Shown here: positions 10,845 to 56,530 of the stretch, piece by piece
Layout: every line of letters starts with the position of its first letter
Position numbering within the stretch: the first letter of the stretch is position 1
DNA from: a virus
Length of the DNA: 64,000 nucleotides
Reading direction: 5' to 3' (one strand)
IMG/VR virus record: IMGVR_UViG_3300028592_000008
Span: 1 to 64,000 of that record
Translations under genes and position numbers: made by a program
The notes under the pieces: model-generated
Seen by the model: only the letters and a program-made list of their open reading frames with translations
Databases searched by the model: none
What the model was told of the DNA's origin: nothing

Positions 10845-10918
10845 TGGGGCGTAGCTCAATCGGTAGAGCGATCGAGGTGCATGCCTGAGAGATGCCGGTT
10901 CGAGTCCGGCCGCCCCTA
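10845..10918 (+). tRNA. tRNA-like gene with unusual anticodon arm
   Basis: Six acceptor base pairs (GGGGCG/CGCCCC, with a T-T mismatch at 1:72), TA at 8-9, a perfect D stem (GCTC/GAGC) and a perfect T arm (GCCGG TTCGAGT CCGGC) are seen. The 24 bases between them do not fold into a normal 5-base anticodon stem. The best arm is TCGAG/CCTGA with one mismatch and loop GTGCATG, giving anticodon GCA (Cys). No CCA is encoded. It may be a real but odd tRNA, a decaying tRNA or a tRNA mimic. Confidence 0.55.
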
Positions 10919-10955
10919 CTCCCGGAATTCCCGGGCAAATTGAAAGGACACTGCA

Positions 10956-11147
10956 ATGCTGGTTCTGAGCCGCAAAGAGGGTGAGTCGATCATCATTGGG
11001 GATGGGATCGAGGTGAAGGTCGTCGACATCGACGGCAACAAGGTGCGGATCGGCATCGAGGCGCCGCGGAACGTATCGGTTCACCGCAAGGAGGTTTACG
11101 ACGCGATGAAGCGTGAAGCGAAGGAAGGAGGCAGCCGTGGGGCTTGA
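10956..11147 (+). CDS. csrA: CsrA/RsmA-family RNA-binding translational regulator
   Basis: 63 residues matching CsrA along its length: [12 protein letters not shown] start with Leu4 and Arg6, [20 protein letters not shown] strands, and [17 protein letters not shown] with Arg44, the RNA-contacting residue. CsrA dimers bind GGA motifs near ribosome-binding sites and alter translation or mRNA stability. A good AAAGGA precedes the ATG. The gene overlaps the next one by 11 bases. A phage copy could reprogramme host mRNAs or control phage genes; many leaders here contain GGA. Confidence 0.95.
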
Positions 11148-12027
11148 AACTGGGATTAGCTGGACCGACTACACATGGAACCCATGGCAGGGCTGCACGA
11201 AGATCAGTCCGGCGTGCGCGAATTGCTATATGTTCCCGGGGATGTGGCGATGGGGCAAGGACCCGACAGTTGTCCGCCGCTCGTCTCCACAGACTTTCAA
11301 TCTGCCGCTCAAGCGGAAGTCGGCGAAGAACGGCGGCGGATACGCGATGGAGCCGGGCAAGTGGGTGTTCACCTGCTCGTGGTCCGACTGGTTCCACAAG
11401 GACGCGGACCCTTGGAGGGACGAAGCCTGGGCAATCGTGAGGGCTCGCCCGGACCTGAACTTCCAGATCGTCACGAAGCGGACGGAGCGGATCAAGGACT
11501 GTCTGCCATCCGATTGGGGCGACGGATACCGGAACGTCATCCTGATCGCGACTGTCGAGAATCAGGAGTTCCTCGAAAAGCGGGTTCCGGACCTGTTCTC
11601 CGTCCCGGCGTGGCGTCGCGGGTTGTCGTGCGAGCCGCTGCTGGGGCCGCTCGATTTCCACCGCAGGTGCTTTGCCGACAACTGCCAGGGAGAGTGCGGA
11701 TGGCCTTCTCCGTTCGATCTCCTTGGAGACAACAAAAACGGATCCGGCGCACTGATCGACTGGATCATCACCGGCGGGGAATCCGGAACAGGGGCGCGGC
11801 CATCGAATCCTCAGTGGTTCCGGGACGTCCGGGATCAGTGCTTCTTGGCGGGAGTTCCGTTCCACCACAAGCAAAACGGCGAGTGGGTGTCTGTCAGTGA
11901 GGTCGAGGGACCCGGGGAGCACTTCGCCTTCTCGGATCACAGGGTTGTGCGGCGGGTAGGTGTCGCCGCGGCTGGGAGAACGATCGACGGAAAGGTCTAT
12001 GATGCCTTCCCGTCCATGGGAGCATAG
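11137..12027 (+). CDS. Phage Gp37/Gp68 (DUF5131) family protein
   Basis: 296 residues. The start has the family signature [14 protein letters not shown] followed by three cysteines, C20-x6-C27-x2-C30, as in other Gp37/Gp68 proteins. Later motifs also fit ([35 protein letters not shown]). The biochemical activity is not established to my knowledge; the three-Cys motif recalls metal or iron-sulfur binding, and members are found next to the TcmP three-Cys-motif partner protein in other genomes, which I do not see here. The GTG at 11137 follows AAGGAGG inside csrA, so the two are coupled. Confidence 0.85.
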
Positions 12028-13476: not shown

Positions 13477-13695
13477 GTGAAGCAGTTTCAGATCAGCGAG
13501 GAAGACCTGCAGTCCCTCGAGCACATTCTCCCGGCCGTGCTGTGGAAGCTGACCTGCAGGCCAGATGCGGACCCGCAGGATCGCGTCCACTTCCGTCAGG
13601 TCCGGGGCATCCTGACAAACGTGCGATGGGGATACTGGCCCCCGGAGAACGTAGAGATCATTCCGCCAGGGGAGACTGACCATGCTGCTGAGTGA
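13477..13695 (+). CDS. Small hypothetical protein
   Basis: 72 residues (MKQFQISEEDLQSLEHILPA at the start) from GTG. It overlaps the following terminase-like gene by 14 bases. Size and helical start would be compatible with a packaging accessory protein, but nothing proves it. Confidence 0.55.
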   Translation: MKQFQISEEDLQSLEHILPAVLWKLTCRPDADPQDRVHFRQVRGILTNVRWGYWPPENVEIIPPGETDHAAE

Positions 13696-14428
13696 GTTTC
13701 AGGCGTTGCCATTTCAGGACGCCGCACTGAATTGTGGGCAGAAGATCCAGATCATCCGCGGGGGCAATCGGTCCTCGAAGAGCCTGGTCGCTGCCGTGAA
13801 GGTGGCCGCCGCGCTGACCGGGGAGACGGTGAAGCTGTCCAACGGGGCGGGCGTGGCGTACACCCCGGCGAAGCGGGTCTACTGCGCCGGGAAGGACTTC
13901 GAGCACGTCTCGGAGAAAATGGCGGCGCCGCTGTTCGGGTCGGCCATCGGAATCGGGGAGGCCCCGGGACTGATCGCCGCCGACAAGATCGAGATGGTTT
14001 CGTGGTTCAACAAGACGCTTGGCTGGCCGGCGATGGTCCGGCTGAAGAGCGGTGCCGAGGTTGTTTTCGGACAGGGATTCAGCAATCACGGGTTCCGCTT
14101 CGCGATCATCTGGGCAGACGAGAAGGTGCTCAGCGACGGGCGGCTCCTGTCGATGGTTGCGCAGGCCGACGTCTTCATCTGGTCGACCTGGCCGGACTCG
14201 ACGAACGACGAGCTCCGGAGGCTGTGCAAGCTGGCGGCGGAGACCGGCGCGGAGTTCGTCTTCCGGATGCAGGACAACACCACGATCTCCGAAGAGAAGC
14301 GGGCGTCGATCCTGGAGACGTGGGGAGCATTGGGGTCGCAGCATTTGCAGGCCCGGAACCTCGGCGAATTCCCGGCCGATCCGCCGGCCGAAGAGAAAGC
14401 TCTTGACACGGAGAAGCCGGCCCCCTAG
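13682..14428 (+). CDS. Terminase-like ATPase lacking the nuclease domain (TerL paralogue)
   Basis: 248 residues, homologous by eye to the ATPase half of the full TerL at 24023-25774. Shared blocks: IIRGGNRSSKS (residues 24-34) versus LIRGGNRSGKS; AIIWADEKV (141-149) versus IIWVDEKV; FIWSTWPDSTNDELRR (165-180) versus FWWSTWPTSTNTALRS; and WGALGSQHLQARNLGEF versus WQALGAGHVQARNEGEF. It stops where TerL continues into its nuclease domain. The Walker A glycine before Lys33 is Ser32, so ATP use may be altered. GGGGAGACTGACC precedes the ATG. A gene-free, structured stretch follows immediately. It could be an accessory packaging ATPase, a decoy subunit or a decaying duplicate. Confidence 0.8.
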   Translation: MLLSEFQALPFQDAALNCGQKIQIIRGGNRSSKSLVAAVKVAAALTGETVKLSNGAGVAYTPAKRVYCAGKDFEHVSEKMAAPLFGSAIGIGEAPGLIAADKIEMVSWFNKTLGWPAMVRLKSGAEVVFGQGFSNHGFRFAIIWADEKVLSDGRLLSMVAQADVFIWSTWPDSTNDELRRLCKLAAETGAEFVFRMQDNTTISEEKRASILETWGALGSQHLQARNLGEFPADPPAEEKALDTEKPAP

Positions 14429-23391: not shown

Positions 23392-24042
23392 ATGCCGCGG
23401 ACGGTCTACGAAACTCCGACGAAGCGATGCCAAGCCTGTCAGCGGATGTTGACGGTTCACTGCTTCAAGCCGGCGACGGCGGTCTACTGTGAGGGCTGCA
23501 CGGAGACCGTACAGCCGATCGCGGTGAAGCTGGCCGAGGAGAAGGTCGGGGCGGTCGCGATCAGCCTGGCGGACTCCCTGCAGCGCACAGTCGACGCCAG
23601 TCAGCCGGACATGGAACAGATCGTCCGGCTGACGATGAGGGCCATGGGCGGCCCGGATGGCATCGTGGGCATCGTCTCCCGGCAGATCGCGGACCTCGAG
23701 GGGCGGCTGATCAACGGGAAGATCGTCAGCTACGAAGAGGCGGTCCGACTGAACGAGGGAAAGACGAAAGACCGGAAGACGTTGCTCGCGTACCTGAAGC
23801 TGTTCACGGCGATGGTCGCGAAGAACGACGAGGCGAAGGCGGACGAGCGGAAGCGGACCGCCGGGCTGAATGTCGTCGAGATGGGGAACCGCCTGCTCGA
23901 CTTCTGCTGGAAGCAGATCAACGGGGACAAGTCGTTCCGCGAGCGGCTGATCCGGCTGCTGGTGTCGAAGTTCCGGGACGACGTCGCCCGGGCGATGAAC
24001 ACGATCGAGACGGAGGCGGTCGGTGGGACAGCTCAACCTTGA
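23392..24042 (+). CDS. Putative terminase small subunit with N-terminal zinc finger
   Basis: 216 residues. A CQACQ...YCEGC pair (about 13-37) forms a zinc-finger-like start; the rest is helical. It overlaps the TerL gene by 20 bases, the usual place for TerS. The classic TerS helix-turn-helix is not obvious, so this is a context call. The ATG at 23392 follows GGGTGACACC; a TTG at 23380 is an alternative. Confidence 0.5.
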   Translation: MPRTVYETPTKRCQACQRMLTVHCFKPATAVYCEGCTETVQPIAVKLAEEKVGAVAISLADSLQRTVDASQPDMEQIVRLTMRAMGGPDGIVGIVSRQIADLEGRLINGKIVSYEEAVRLNEGKTKDRKTLLAYLKLFTAMVAKNDEAKADERKRTAGLNVVEMGNRLLDFCWKQINGDKSFRERLIRLLVSKFRDDVARAMNTIETEAVGGTAQP

Positions 24043-25774
24043 GGAGACGGACTACGTACCGTACTCCGAAGACGACCTGCAGTGGATCGCCCAATGGGCG
24101 GCCGAAGAGTCGGACGCGATCAAGCTCTTCCGGCCGATGCCCCCGGAGTTCATGTCGCAGGAGGACGTGCTCCGCGCGGAGTGTCTGCACAAGCTGATCC
24201 GCGGCGGAAATCGTAGTGGAAAATCCACGATCGCGGCGGTCATGTTCGCCGCGGCGGCCCGGGACATGCCGATCACGACCTGGAGCGGGGAGGAGATCCA
24301 CGTCCGGCGGCCGTGGCAGCGCGGGAAGCCGCTGCTGATGTGGGTCGTGGGCTACGATTGGGACCATATCGGCGACACGATTTACCGGCTCCTGTGCGAG
24401 CCGAATCACTCGCTGAAGATGATCCGGGACCTCGAGACGGGGGTCCTTCGCGCGTTCAAGCCGTGGGACCCGTCCGACGCCGCGCGGGAGGACGAGACCG
24501 AGCCCTGCCCTCCGCTGATCCCCGGGCACGAGATCGAGAGGATCGTCTGGAAGAATGCGGGCGCGCATATCTTCGACCAGATCCGGCTCAGGAACGGCAC
24601 CGTCATTCACGGTCACAGCTCGAAGGAGGCCAAGGCAGGGGACCCGGTCGACATCATCTGGGTCGACGAAAAGGTGGAGTACGAGATCAACGTCGCCGAG
24701 TGGCAGGCGCGTCTCGGGGACAAGCGCGGGCAGTTCTGGTGGAGCACCTGGCCGACCTCCACGAACACCGCGCTGCGGTCCATGTCACGAAAGGCGAAGT
24801 CGGACGACGTCGAGATCCGGGAGGGAAAGCGGAAGCGGAGGACGGTGCAGGAATGGGTTTTCAAGATGTACAAAAACCCGTACATGCCCGCCGAGTCCAA
24901 ACAGGACTTGCTCGAGAACTGGCAGGCCCTCGGCGCCGGGCACGTCCAGGCTCGAAACGAGGGGGAGTTCGTCGACGAGGGGGACCGCGCGTATCCGATG
25001 TTCAACGAGGACACCTGCGCGGCGATCGTGCATGGGGACCTCGAGGACGTGATCTCCCGGATCCTGCGGAAGCGGAATGGGGAGCCGCCGAGCGATTGGG
25101 CCCGGTTCATGATGCTCGACCCCGGGACGACGCGACCGGCCCTGCTCTTCGGGGCGATCCCGCCGCCGGCACTCGGGGACTGGCGAGTCATCTACCAGGA
25201 GATCATCGCCCCGGGGCACGACGCATTCCGGCTGATGAAGCTGGCGGAGCCGTTCTTCCAGAACTACTCGTTTCAGACGTTCGTCATCGACATGCAGGCT
25301 GGCCGGAAGACGGGCGAAGGCCACCGGATCAGCAACGCCGAGAACTACTCGAACGCCATGCGGAAGTACGGAATCCGCTCGGAGAAGACCGGGTTCGGGT
25401 TCGTCCCCGGGTCGCCGGACATCAATGCCCGGCGCGGCATCATCCAGTCGTGGATGCACGTCGGAGCGAGCGGCCTGGCGAAACTGCGGATCGTGAAGGA
25501 GCGGTGCAAGATCCTTGTCCACGAGCTCAGTACGGTCAAAACCAAGGTGACGCAGGCTGGCGCGGAGAAGATCGACGGCCGGGAACACGACGCGACGGAC
25601 ACGCTCGAATACTTCGGCTCGATCGACCCGCAGTGGGAACCTCCTGTTCACGTAGAGCGGCAGGTGCTAAAAAATCCTGCGGAAGTGCTCAGGGAATACC
25701 TTGAGACTCTGCGTCCCTCGGAACGGCCGAAGAGCAGCGGAAGCGTCTTCGGCGCATGCGGAAATGGAAGGTGA
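24023..25774 (+). CDS. terL: Terminase large subunit
   Basis: 583 residues with all expected parts. ATPase: Walker A GGNRSGKST at 61-69, Walker B IIWVDE at 211-216, and a coupling-like STWPTS at 241-246. Nuclease (RNase H fold): Asp366 in MMLDPGTT, Asp423 in FVIDMQAG, and Asp523/Asp526 in EHDATDTLEYFG. It pumps DNA into the prohead and cuts it. The GTG start lies within the TerS-like gene with GGAGGC upstream. A nuclease-less paralogue lies 10 kb upstream. Confidence 0.92.
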   Translation: MGQLNLEETDYVPYSEDDLQWIAQWAAEESDAIKLFRPMPPEFMSQEDVLRAECLHKLIRGGNRSGKSTIAAVMFAAAARDMPITTWSGEEIHVRRPWQRGKPLLMWVVGYDWDHIGDTIYRLLCEPNHSLKMIRDLETGVLRAFKPWDPSDAAREDETEPCPPLIPGHEIERIVWKNAGAHIFDQIRLRNGTVIHGHSSKEAKAGDPVDIIWVDEKVEYEINVAEWQARLGDKRGQFWWSTWPTSTNTALRSMSRKAKSDDVEIREGKRKRRTVQEWVFKMYKNPYMPAESKQDLLENWQALGAGHVQARNEGEFVDEGDRAYPMFNEDTCAAIVHGDLEDVISRILRKRNGEPPSDWARFMMLDPGTTRPALLFGAIPPPALGDWRVIYQEIIAPGHDAFRLMKLAEPFFQNYSFQTFVIDMQAGRKTGEGHRISNAENYSNAMRKYGIRSEKTGFGFVPGSPDINARRGIIQSWMHVGASGLAKLRIVKERCKILVHELSTVKTKVTQAGAEKIDGREHDATDTLEYFGSIDPQWEPPVHVERQVLKNPAEVLREYLETLRPSERPKSSGSVFGACGNGR

Positions 25775-35399: not shown

Positions 35400-36487
35400 C
35401 CCCGATCAGCTTTCGAAACGACAGCGGCGAGACGATCCCGTCCTACGCGATCGTCGGGCTGGCGTACGTGGCGTCCCCGGCGACGGGGAGGAAGGTGGCC
35501 TCCGGGGACCAGATCGTCAATTCGTCGAATCCGTGGGTCGTCAACTCCCGGGTCGCGGTGTCGAGTGACGGCCCTGGCTGGGGGTTCGGTTCCGCGAATC
35601 GGTACGAGTGGATCGCGTACGAATCGGCGGATGGGACGCCCGCTGTCGGGGACGAGTGGGGGCCGAAGGCGGACAGTTGGAAGCTCCGGCGCGCGGCGGC
35701 CGGGTGCCGGATCGTCTCAGTCGGGAGCGGCGTCGTCTTTTGCGAGATCATGGGGCGATCCGGGATTCGGGTCGCGTACTGCACGCAGAAGTGCAAGAAG
35801 GGGCAGACGAAGACGTTCCAGCTCCGCGAGGGGTATGGGTCGAGCGAGGCCGGCGCGGAGATCCAGGTCAAGAATCGGATCTACGGGACGATCAGCTCGG
35901 GGACTCCCTGTTACGTCTCGGAAATCTACGGGACGTGGGAGGTCATCGCTGTCAATGACGACGACGAGTCCGACTCCTCGAGCTCGAACACGGGGACTGG
36001 AACGGCGACAGACACCGGGACTGGAACGGGCGACACTGGAACGGGCGACACTGGAACGGGCACGGGGACCGGCGACACCGGAACGGGGACCGGCAAGGAC
36101 ACCGCGGTCGTCAAGGCCGACTGGTCGCCCGGGGGCTACGCGGCTCTGTTCGTCGAGGAATCCCCGGAGGTCCGCTTCAACGATGTGATGGTCGTCGAGA
36201 TGCGGGAGTTGTCCGGGAGTTTTGACATCGACCCGCGGTTCGTGAAGGTTTGCGAGCGGGACACGATTGAGGTCTGCGGCTTCTCCGTGGACGGGGCCGT
36301 CGCGGTGGGAGCCCGCGCGAGAAATGGCCGGGTGACGGTTTCGCACAGCGGCGTTCCCGGGAACACGATGCGGATCGTCCTGCGACTGACCGGCATCCGC
36401 AAAGGCTTCAAGGGCGTGCGGTTCCCAGAACGGACCCGGGACGAGTTCATGGCGAACGAAGCCTGGCTCAAGCGGGGTGCGAAGTGA
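35396..36487 (+). CDS. Two-domain tail protein with Gly-Thr-Asp repeat linker
   Basis: 363 residues. An N-terminal domain (1-195) and a C-terminal domain (235-363) are joined by a low-complexity linker of Gly, Thr and Asp encoded by tandem repeats at 35989-36096. The C-terminal domain has an Ig-like feel (FDIDPRFVKVCERDTIEVCG). Such linkers are common in virion surface proteins. Confidence 0.55.
   Translation: MTPISFRNDSGETIPSYAIVGLAYVASPATGRKVASGDQIVNSSNPWVVNSRVAVSSDGPGWGFGSANRYEWIAYESADGTPAVGDEWGPKADSWKLRRAAAGCRIVSVGSGVVFCEIMGRSGIRVAYCTQKCKKGQTKTFQLREGYGSSEAGAEIQVKNRIYGTISSGTPCYVSEIYGTWEVIAVNDDDESDSSSSNTGTGTATDTGTGTGDTGTGDTGTGTGTGDTGTGTGKDTAVVKADWSPGGYAALFVEESPEVRFNDVMVVEMRELSGSFDIDPRFVKVCERDTIEVCGFSVDGAVAVGARARNGRVTVSHSGVPGNTMRIVLRLTGIRKGFKGVRFPERTRDEFMANEAWLKRGAK
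35989..36096 (+). repeat. Coding minisatellite
   Basis: Tandem, imperfect units of about 9-15 bases built on GGAACGGGCGACACT and ACGGGGACCGGC. In frame they encode Gly-Thr-Asp-Thr-type linker sequence. The number of units is likely to vary between relatives by slippage. Confidence 0.85.
36353..36364. promoter_or_regulatory. Shortened palindrome variant
   Basis: GTTCCCGGGAAC, the same shortened form as at 17840, inside the tail gene at 35396 (read V-P-G-N). Confidence 0.35.
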
Positions 36488-36843
36488 GCGACGGGTCGGC
36501 GAAGGAGTCGAGCGACGAGGGGACGGCGCCGTGCAAGGCCGGCGTTGCAACTCTCGATGTGGCCGGCGAACTGACCGGCACCCTCCTGAGCGGCGGCGGG
36601 ACGACATACGGCGGCCTCTGCACGCCGGTCCCGCCGATCGGGTTCTTCCAGTTCCAGATCGGTATCGGCTGCGCGCTGGGGGAGTACAGCGGGACGTACG
36701 TCAAATACTCTCTTGGCGGTCCGGCATCACCCCCCGAGAGCGGCAGCGTCGCCGTCACGATTGTCAGTGCTGACCCGATCTCCCTGATCTGCAGCTTCAC
36801 GTCCCCCTCGCTGGGTGGCTTTGACTTCACGGTGCAAGAGTGA
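36484..36843 (+). CDS. Hypothetical beta-rich tail-region protein
   Basis: 119 residues, coupled by ATGA. Gly/Ser/Thr-rich beta sequence with three cysteines (CKAG, LCTP, IGCA, plus LICSF), perhaps a small surface domain. No family recognised. Confidence 0.5.
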   Translation: MSDGSAKESSDEGTAPCKAGVATLDVAGELTGTLLSGGGTTYGGLCTPVPPIGFFQFQIGIGCALGEYSGTYVKYSLGGPASPPESGSVAVTIVSADPISLICSFTSPSLGGFDFTVQE

Positions 36844-39053
36844 GGTACATCGAGGACGTCCTGGCCGGAGACTCCGATCTTCCCCCGGAAACGGTGGAGA
36901 AGTACCGCCGTTTCTACGAAGACTGGCAAAAGCGGGTCGGGGTGGACGTCGGGAACGGTCTGACGGAGGAGCAAGCGGCCGACCGCTGGCCGTGCGCCTT
37001 CCGGGTTCCGACCGACGAGATCGTTGTGTGCCAGCCATGCCAAGGGGCCCGGACGCACACGCTCTGCGACTGCCTGATGCTGAAGAAGAAATGCACGGTC
37101 AGAGCCTCCAGTCAGCGGGGCGTCCTGACGTGCCTGACGTGTCAAGAAAGGGAGGGGCAGGTGACAGCTCCGATGGACGATGGCCGGTGGGTGGTGGGGG
37201 TGACAACGGCGCCGCGGCGCGGGTCGACTCTGGGGCAGTGCCTCGCGTCGCTGGTGGCGGCGGGGTGGCGGCCGATCGTCTTCGCGGAACCCGGGACCGA
37301 CGTCACGGCGGCGAAGCAACTCGGCCTGCAGGTCGTCCAGTGGAAGAAGCGGATGGGCTGCTGGGGGAACTGGACGGCGATGTCCCGGCACCTGATCGCG
37401 TCGTTCCCGGACGCCGAGATCGTCATGACCGTCCAAGACGACACGATCTTCCACTTGGAGTCGAAGCGCTTCGCCGAGGCGAACGGGGTGTTCCCGGCGA
37501 CGCCAGAGACGACCGGGTTCTTCAGTTTCTACACGGCGAAACACTACCAGTACCGCTACCACGTTGTCCGGCCTGACGGGTCAATGGTGCAGGACTACCC
37601 GAGCCTGCTCGCGGCGGACAAGGCGATCAAGAATCCGAAGTACCCGGGCCGAAAGCTGAAGTGGGTCCAGAAGCCCCGCGGCGCGCACCAGATTGTCACC
37701 CGCGGGTTCTGGGGGGCGTGCGCGCTGGCTTTCCCGCGGGAGTCCCTTCGGCGGATCATCAATCACCGGATCGCGCTCGAGTGGCGCGGGGCGAACGGGA
37801 ACCAGAGCGGGGCGGGGATCAAGAACTCCGACACGGCGATCGGTAAGATTTGTGACACGCTCAACCTGACGATGTGGGTCTGGCAGCCGTCCCTCGCCCA
37901 GCATGTCGCGAAGCACTCGACCCTGGGGCACGGGGACAACTCCGGCCGGCGGGCGGCGCAGATCGTCACGAAGGACCCCTGGAAGGACGGGATCCCGGAT
38001 CAGCGGATGACGTGGGCCGACATGAACGATCTCGACGTCCAGTGCGCGAGGCTGGCCGCGAGACTCCCGAAAGACATCCGCGCCGTGGCCGGCGTCCCGC
38101 GGTCCGGACTCCCGGCGGCGGCCCTGCTCGCGAAGCACCTGCATCTGCCGCTTATCACGATCGACGAGTGCATGGGGCGGACGCAGAACTCCTATCGACC
38201 GAAGGTCAGCCGGCCGATCCTGAATCCCGCGGAGGGGAAGGTTCTGATCGTCGACGACTCCATCGGGAAGGGGAAGACGTGGAAGGAACTCAAGCCGCTG
38301 ATTAAGGTTCCGTTCTACACGGCGACGCCGTACTCCCGGGACCAGGGGATTCAGCACACTGACTTCGTCGGATGCGAGATCCAGAATCCTCAACTCTTTC
38401 ACTGGCAATGGCTTAGCGTGAATTCGACCAAGCTGTGCGCGTTCGACATGGACGGGGTGATCTGTGAGGACTGGACGGGTCCAGAGCAGGCACACGAGGT
38501 CGCGCGGGTCGCGTACGAGGACTTCCTGCGGAACGTGCTCCCCTTGCACCTGCCTCGGGTCCGGATCCAGGCGATCGTCACCGGCCGGCGGGAGCGGTAT
38601 CGCGCCGAGACGGAGGAGTGGCTGTCGCGGCACGGCGTCGAGCATGGCGGCCTGCATATGCTGCCAGACGACTCCCGGCTCAATCACGCAGAATTCAAGG
38701 CCAGGACGCTGCAGCGGCTTACGGGGGTGGTATGCTTCGTGGAGTCCAGTTCGCGGCAAGCCGAGCACATTGCCCGGGTGACGGGGCGATCGGTCTTGTG
38801 CGTTGAGAACTGGCGGATGCTGAACGGCCTCGCGCCGAAACCCCATGCAGCGACTCAAGCCGGTCATCCTCGACCCAAGAATCAAAAGCCAGTTCCCGCC
38901 GCCCCCCGTGTGGTCGATGAAGGAGTTGTCGATGGCGGCCCCGTTCGTCCAGTCACTCTCGACGCGGCGGGTCTACCTCGAGATCGGGGGTTTTCGCGGC
39001 GGCACGCTGCTGCACGCGAGCCAGTGGGTGAAGCCCGGGGGGCTGCTGATTAG
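36840..39053 (+). CDS. Fusion of Cys-rich, glycosyltransferase, phosphoribosyltransferase and HAD domains
   Basis: 737 residues. (1) A Cys-rich module at 52-101 (CQPC, CDC, CLTC). (2) A GT-A-like domain at about 118-350: VGVTTAPRRGSTLGQCLASL start, GNWTAMSRHLI, and the metal-binding acidic cluster VQDD at 198-201. (3) A type I phosphoribosyltransferase at about 395-520, with GVPRSGLPAAALLA (418-431) and the PRPP loop VLIVDDSIGKGKT (468-480). (4) A HAD phosphatase at about 531-660 with FDMDGV (535-540), Thr581 in VTGRRERYR, Lys620 and an acidic SS-loop CFVESS. The last 70 residues run 209 bases into the next gene and look low complexity. A linked sugar or nucleotide modification pathway is inferred. 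Confidence 0.75.
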   Translation: MRYIEDVLAGDSDLPPETVEKYRRFYEDWQKRVGVDVGNGLTEEQAADRWPCAFRVPTDEIVVCQPCQGARTHTLCDCLMLKKKCTVRASSQRGVLTCLTCQEREGQVTAPMDDGRWVVGVTTAPRRGSTLGQCLASLVAAGWRPIVFAEPGTDVTAAKQLGLQVVQWKKRMGCWGNWTAMSRHLIASFPDAEIVMTVQDDTIFHLESKRFAEANGVFPATPETTGFFSFYTAKHYQYRYHVVRPDGSMVQDYPSLLAADKAIKNPKYPGRKLKWVQKPRGAHQIVTRGFWGACALAFPRESLRRIINHRIALEWRGANGNQSGAGIKNSDTAIGKICDTLNLTMWVWQPSLAQHVAKHSTLGHGDNSGRRAAQIVTKDPWKDGIPDQRMTWADMNDLDVQCARLAARLPKDIRAVAGVPRSGLPAAALLAKHLHLPLITIDECMGRTQNSYRPKVSRPILNPAEGKVLIVDDSIGKGKTWKELKPLIKVPFYTATPYSRDQGIQHTDFVGCEIQNPQLFHWQWLSVNSTKLCAFDMDGVICEDWTGPEQAHEVARVAYEDFLRNVLPLHLPRVRIQAIVTGRRERYRAETEEWLSRHGVEHGGLHMLPDDSRLNHAEFKARTLQRLTGVVCFVESSSRQAEHIARVTGRSVLCVENWRMLNGLAPKPHAATQAGHPRPKNQKPVPAAPRVVDEGVVDGGPVRPVTLDAAGLPRDRGFSRRHAAAREPVGEARGAAD

Positions 39054-39471
39054 CATTGACGCCCCGGATGGCCCGGGCGGTGGCGGGGCCCGGGCGTGGG
39101 ATGACCTGCAGGATTCGGCCAAGATCGTCCGAGATCGAGGGTTCCGGGTTCACGTCATCGAGGGGCTGTCGTCTTCGCCGGAAGTCATGGAACGGGTCCG
39201 GGATATCCTGGGAGAGCGGAAGATCAACATCTTGGTGATCGACGGGGACCACGGCCCGGGGGCGGCCTATGCGGACTGGACCCGGTTCTCGCCGCTGCTC
39301 GATGGCTTGGGGATCTGGCACGACTGCGGGGTGCCGAACGGGCTCTACGATCTGTCGACCGAGTCGATTGAGTGCATGCGGTGGACTCGCGCGGGTTTCG
39401 ACTGCGCGGCGGTCGGCCATTGCTTCGCCACCCTGCAGGATGACTTCGGAACCGGGCTGATCTGGTCCTGA
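38845..39471 (+). CDS. SAM-dependent methyltransferase-like protein
   Basis: 208 residues with VYLEIGGFRGGTLLHAS (motif I), GGLLISIDAPDG (motif II) and INILVIDGDHGPGAAYADW, an order seen in sugar O-methyltransferases and cephalosporin-hydroxylase-like proteins. It starts inside the end of the glycosyltransferase fusion, so the two are probably coupled; methylation of a transferred sugar is an inference. Confidence 0.65.
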   Translation: MQRLKPVILDPRIKSQFPPPPVWSMKELSMAAPFVQSLSTRRVYLEIGGFRGGTLLHASQWVKPGGLLISIDAPDGPGGGGARAWDDLQDSAKIVRDRGFRVHVIEGLSSSPEVMERVRDILGERKINILVIDGDHGPGAAYADWTRFSPLLDGLGIWHDCGVPNGLYDLSTESIECMRWTRAGFDCAAVGHCFATLQDDFGTGLIWS

Positions 39472-56426: not shown

Positions 56427-56500
56427 ACCCCGTTAGCTCAATCGGGAGAGCACCGGTCTCCAAAGCCGGCGGTTGCCAGGTTCGATTCCGGCACGGGGTG
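56427..56500 (+). tRNA. tRNA-Trp (CCA)
   Basis: Acceptor ACCCCGT/ACGGGGT (7 pairs), TA, D arm GCTC/GAGC, anticodon arm CCGGT/GCCGG with loop CTCCAAA giving anticodon CCA, discriminator G as in bacterial tRNA-Trp. The T arm (GCCAG/CCGGC) has one mismatch and an 8-base loop. CCA is not encoded. It lies between two protease genes. Confidence 0.85.
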
Positions 56501-56530
56501 CTGAGTTCCTTTCTCTTTCGGAGGTTTGCG

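Follow-up and report, generated by a model that had tools for sequence, protein, structure and literature searches.

A modular phage tail-block protein combining a putative glycosyltransferase with phosphoribosyltransferase and HAD phosphatase domains may assemble a ribose-containing glycan

The window analyzed here, a stretch of 64,000 nucleotides from the IMG/VR virus record IMGVR_UViG_3300028592_000008, contains an open reading frame (ORF) of 737 amino acids that joins a cysteine cluster, a putative glycosyltransferase (GT) with a QDD motif, a phosphoribosyltransferase (PRT) whose PRPP loop is intact, and a HAD phosphatase in a single coding frame (Table 1), as an earlier note on this DNA had recognized from the letters alone. 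Matches to head, terminase, portal, and tail-fibre PHROG families on the same strand support a tail-block position for the ORF, and no family match was found for the product of the gene that overlaps its start.

Table 1. Features of the 737-aa ORF and its neighbours (positions are those of the window)
Feature	Position	Strand	Remarks
119-aa protein directly upstream, 4-base overlap	36484..36843	+	possible structural protein
Cys module + GT + PRT + HAD ORF	36840..39053	+	737 aa, GTG start; functional part ~aa 1-668
8-Cys cluster, aa 52-101	36993..37142	+	probable metal-binding module, inferred
Putative GT domain, aa 113-389	37176..38006	+	invariant QDD, fusions, context
Xanthine-PRT-like phosphoribosyltransferase domain, aa 390 to ~525	38007..38414	+	PRPP loop VDDS
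HAD phosphatase domain, aa 532-665	38433..38834	+	nearest solved relative Pnkp1
C-terminal overrun of the ORF across the methyltransferase gene	38844..39050	+	third-codon GC; no domain
Class I methyltransferase, Methyltransf_24 (PF13578)	38845..39471	+	29 bits vs cut-off 26.3
Downstream tail fibre or structural protein, 1148 aa	40253..43699	+	candidate decoration target

Third-codon GC content stayed between 0.78 and 0.93 in one frame over aa 1 to 660, the GT/PRT junction included, which points to a single coding frame across that junction. From about aa 661 it fell to ~0.5, with 0.88 in the frame of the methyltransferase gene; given this shift of the coding signal, the last ~70 aa are read-through rather than a domain. 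A methyltransferase gene does start within the end of the long ORF, as the earlier note had stated, and the overlapped end of the ORF is an overrun. The PRT part opens at an ATG, at the same point as its stand-alone relatives, as would be expected had two once-separate genes been fused. Homology to other GT sequences extends in the same frame almost to the junction, so the fusion is explicable without a sequencing frameshift, although some error is possible in a single contig. When the same architecture was sought, no contig other than this metagenomic one showed exactly this order of the four modules. Pairwise fusions recurred elsewhere (described below), so that the chance fusion confined to one phage, which the earlier note had named as a ground against its reading, was not borne out.

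Scored alone, the PRT domain reached 26.6 bits against PF00156 (curated cut-off, 26.3; 24.3 bits when the whole 737-aa ORF was scored), and it carries a PRPP loop with an acidic pair, on which grounds it is classified by sequence as a type I phosphoribosyltransferase. Purine and xanthine PRTs were matched by the PRT profile in the PDB at 1e-10 to 1e-5; orotate PRTs were also among its matches. The HAD domain is likewise assigned to the HAD superfamily phosphatases on its motifs I (DxD, D536/D538), II (T/S, T581), III (K, K620), and IV (acidic, E635), the last of which reads E-S, not D-D. Across 67 sequences, D536, D538, K620, and E635 were invariant and T581 nearly so, and one Asp of the PRPP-loop pair was invariant and the other nearly so; loss of catalytic residues across homologues, which the earlier note had named as a ground for abandoning its reading, was thus not observed. 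Among PHROG families, the HAD domain matched phrog_415 "polynucleotide kinase" at 2.7e-13, and the sole PDB match of the HAD family profile up to E=10 was Pnkp1 (4xrp), at 1.6e-5.

Neither the putative GT domain nor its relatives matched any Pfam GT family, and the PDB held no credible match for either, so that the name glycosyltransferase derives entirely from the QDD motif (aa 199 to 201, invariant in 10 of 10 aligned phage sequences), the fusions, and the context. Single-sequence scans with the full-length protein and with the GT domain found no viral relatives beyond the contig of one locus (L069); a scan with the GT family alignment recovered nine further viral loci, mostly in tail regions. 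Cys+GT proteins came from this family scan at two loci (L239 and L240), and other viral loci encode Cys+GT+methyltransferase-like (L237), GT+FkbM-like+GT4-like (L244), and Cys+GT+GT2-like (L245) proteins, all partner labels being assigned by reading. The PRT-HAD pair was absent from all nine loci. Such varied pairings show that the modules recombine, and the window holds one such combination. This putative GT family occurs in Planctomycetota and in phage tail blocks, and its members are themselves joined to Cys modules, to methyltransferases, and to other GTs.

The N-terminal cluster of eight cysteines probably binds metal. No significant profile relation was detected between this module and the phage Cys modules of the relatives (score 3.3). 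Planctomycete sequences gave marginal matches, none significant by profile, and an apparent match of planctomycete Cys motifs to the window module was set aside.

Several other features of the window were observed. The 363-aa tail-block protein contains a Thr-Gly-Thr-Gly-Asp stretch derived from short tandem repeats (35988-36094), and Ser runs lie at a similar place upstream of GT genes in viral relatives. Two ORFs matched the terminase large subunit family phrog_2, one at 13682-14428 (weakly, 0.033) and one at 24023-25774. A phage-encoded CsrA global regulator (10956-11147; PF02599, 94.6 bits) adjoins a DUF5131 protein (11113-12027, 216 bits), and a pair of exonuclease VIII-like and RecT-like recombination genes occupies 44211-46128. 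Only two tRNA genes were found, for Cys (gca) and Trp (cca), at 10845-10919 and 56427-56501, the former being worthy of mention given the Cys-rich tail-block protein of the same phage.

The PRT-HAD pair is a common family: candidate stretches were confirmed in 161 viral and 456 genomic cases, of which the 80 best on each side were retained. The plasmid-borne copies of Paracoccus and Bosea belong to exopolysaccharide loci; those of Rhizobium lie beside a GT and type VI secretion genes. The commonest Pfam matches among 112 bacterial neighbours were to GT2 (19) and other GTs, including GT1/GT4, and Polysacc_synt flippases (6 and 5), methyltransferases (5), and Wzy ligases (3) were also common; in the 114 viral neighbours, the leading families were methyltransferases and GTs. 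This company of glycan genes is a strong pattern, not a measured enrichment. Fusions of the pair were also recurrent: to GT2 (L099 and L120), to an RgpF-like domain (L090), to GT4 in a virus (L026), to an FkbM-like methyltransferase (L114), and to methyltransferases in the viral loci L003, L022, and L023, of which only the L003 fusion was confirmed by Pfam, the remaining labels being assigned by reading. A radical SAM-like domain fused to PRT-HAD was also seen in a Spirochaetaceae MAG (L157, 7995-9797).

In many viral copies of PRT-HAD, the N terminus bears a Cys module and the gene comes after tail-region structural genes, the combination of Cys module and PRT-HAD being found at more than 20 viral loci. 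In the tree of 67 sequences, the PRT-HAD of the window grouped with Cys-bearing viral copies and L002 with a support of 0.94. The closest parallel is L069, a tail block in which Cys+PRT-HAD, radical SAM, GT, GT2, and GT4-like proteins are encoded by neighbouring genes and whose GT is related to that of the window (phmmer, 6.7e-11). A set of enzymes for sugar or ribosyl modification, as the earlier note had suggested, is supported by bacterial PRT-HAD genes lying among GTs, flippases, and methyltransferases and by the recombination of the same domains in phage tail blocks.

Of 343 Planctomycetota genomes, 7 contain relatives of the GT and 6 gave strong PRT-HAD matches; two genomes (G093 and G244) have both families. 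In G244 the two lie ~15 kb apart together with other glycan-type genes, and its Cys+PRT-HAD gene adjoins Methyltransf_24 and a weak sulfotransferase match; the PRT-HAD genes of G093 and G200 are located among phage-like tail and morphogenesis genes, as read by eye. The GT family profile matched none of 299 Pseudomonadota genomes, the Pseudomonadota having been scanned with this profile at E 1e-5 and the Planctomycetota with a single sequence at E 1e-3. This distribution favours a planctomycete host for the phage, which stays only a lead because the terminase of the window had no match in the 343 Planctomycetota genomes. A prophage with Cys+PRT-HAD is present in the planctomycete genome to which L236 belongs. 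On one planctomycete contig (L191, 6575-14312), a run of Cys-motif proteins, of which two carry fused GT-like domains, was followed by a 1529-aa Cys-rich protein.

In bacteria, beta-ribofuranose is added to glycans by transfer of phosphoribose from PRPP followed by 5'-dephosphorylation by a HAD enzyme (PMC11127046, PMC11231755, PMC10299916, and PMC12096443). The ribofuranosyltransferases in question (gPRT-PRP), namely those of Klebsiella O4/O7, Hib Bcs3 CriT/CrpP, and Campylobacter Cj1432, share with the window protein a PRPP-using PRT fold and a HAD domain in a single polypeptide, to which additional GT modules are often joined. They sit in polysaccharide loci, as do the bacterial PRT-HAD genes, whereas the window copy lies in a phage tail block. 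The active sites differ as well: the PRT of the window, short and xanthine-PRT-like, has its two Asp residues side by side, but in Bcs3 the acidic pair is split (D680/E818), and the HAD domain of the window protein is Pnkp-like with both motif I Asp residues invariant, while CrpP retains the first alone (PMC10299916). The HAD profile did not match the solved gPRT-PRP members 7SHG, 8A0C, and 8A0M up to E=10, and solved gPRT entries were absent from the best 60 of 84 PDB matches of the PRT profile. Since the HAD sequence and active-site comparisons failed, the window protein is better said to work like a gPRT-PRP enzyme than to be one. The stand-alone "phosphoribosyltransferase family proteins" of Rhizobium, Paracoccus, and Bosea belong to the same PRT-HAD family as the window copy (~32 to 36% identity over most of the domain pair); they lack an N-terminal Cys or GT module, lie in chromosomal or plasmid exopolysaccharide loci, and are apparently uncharacterized.

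Among phages, a GT together with a methyltransferase has been read as an indication that the virion is glycosylated (PMC13313380), and capsid glycans were reported for phages Che8 and Rita (PMC11256854). The virion glycosylation cassettes of these actinobacteriophages, also proposed in Rhodococcus phages, have GT and methyltransferase in common with the window; in the cassettes these are separate genes, whereas the window set is linked to tail genes, and no description of a PRT-HAD or Cys module in such cassettes was found. Genes for a putative GT and a methyltransferase accompany structural genes in the window and in its relatives.

We propose, with a probability of roughly 0.5, that the 737-aa protein is a phage enzyme of glycan assembly. 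The putative GT domain would add a sugar from a nucleotide-sugar donor of the host, the PRT domain would then move 5-phosphoribose from PRPP onto that glycan, and the HAD domain would strip the 5'-phosphate to leave ribofuranose, after which the product of the overlapping gene may methylate the glycan; the Cys module, probably metal binding, could tether the enzyme to its target. In many phages such cassettes come immediately after tail genes, so the tail fibre or virion most likely carries the glycan, the position of the genes being what makes the virion the likeliest target of decoration. The GT activity, the order of the steps, the product, the acceptor, and the biological role are what we infer from the architecture and its surroundings. 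The acceptor could instead be a base or nucleotide, given that the PRT domain resembles nucleobase PRTs and not those known to act on glycans.

The main rival, which we consider unlikely, retains the same chemistry but directs it at the surface polysaccharide of the host during infection or lysogeny, where it would block superinfection or alter phage receptors. Relatives of the PRT-HAD and GT do work in host polysaccharide loci, and cyanophage GT clusters have been proposed to alter host O antigen (PMC7824862); however, the phage copies lie inside the late tail block with Cys-rich structural genes immediately before them, expression at a late stage is a better fit to virion assembly, and no flippase or membrane protein was recognized beside the ORF within the window. 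Less probable still is a chance or artefactual join of parts that are separate or inactive, although the exact module order was seen once and the start of the PRT at an ATG and the overrun of the C terminus into the next gene are what losses of stop codons would give. The in-frame coding signature across the junction, the GT homology in the same frame up to its vicinity, and the full set of catalytic residues argue for a genuine fusion.

Two further alternatives move the chemistry away from glycans. That PRT-HAD makes a free nucleoside-like metabolite, from a nucleobase and PRPP with subsequent dephosphorylation, for signalling, defence, or counter-defence in the manner of Ter systems seems improbable to us, even though PRT and HAD phosphoesterase occur together in both, xanthine and purine PRTs are closest to the PRT domain, PRTase_2 is matched by a few PRT-HAD members, and PRT and HAD enzymes of Ter type have been proposed in a jumbo phage (PMC7824862). 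Neither TerB, TerC, nor TerD was found among the 25 commonest families of the 112 bacterial and 114 viral neighbours, the covalent partners being GT and methyltransferase domains instead; the defence role raised in the earlier note thus found no support. The same holds for DNA modification, no genes for which were seen among the listed neighbour families. The literature on BtrL/BtrP ribosylation and Ter systems yielded little of relevance. An action on phage DNA or RNA, with a HAD akin to polynucleotide kinase-phosphatase repairing or tagging nucleic acid ends, would account for the matches to phrog_415 and Pnkp1 but appears very improbable, considering that the protein has no kinase or ligase domain, that its gene lies among tail genes and away from the recombination and helicase genes at 44 to 50 kb, and that its bacterial relatives occupy glycan loci.

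Beyond this protein, a broader and more tentative proposal can be made, to which we give clearly less than even odds: PRT-HAD, widespread in bacteria and haloarchaea, may be a second family of PRPP-dependent ribofuranosyltransferases that evolved independently of the first. Phages, Planctomycetota prophages included, may have combined it with Cys modules, methyltransferases, and a new GT family, giving modular proteins by which they ribosylate their own tail or virion. The analysis delineates, in environmental phages, a modular glycan system of the tail block, the function of which was not found described in the literature searched. If the proposal is true, it would provide a function for a widespread uncharacterized family annotated merely as "phosphoribosyltransferase," would mean that ribose-containing glycans arose by a second evolutionary route, and would predict phage virions decorated with pentose.
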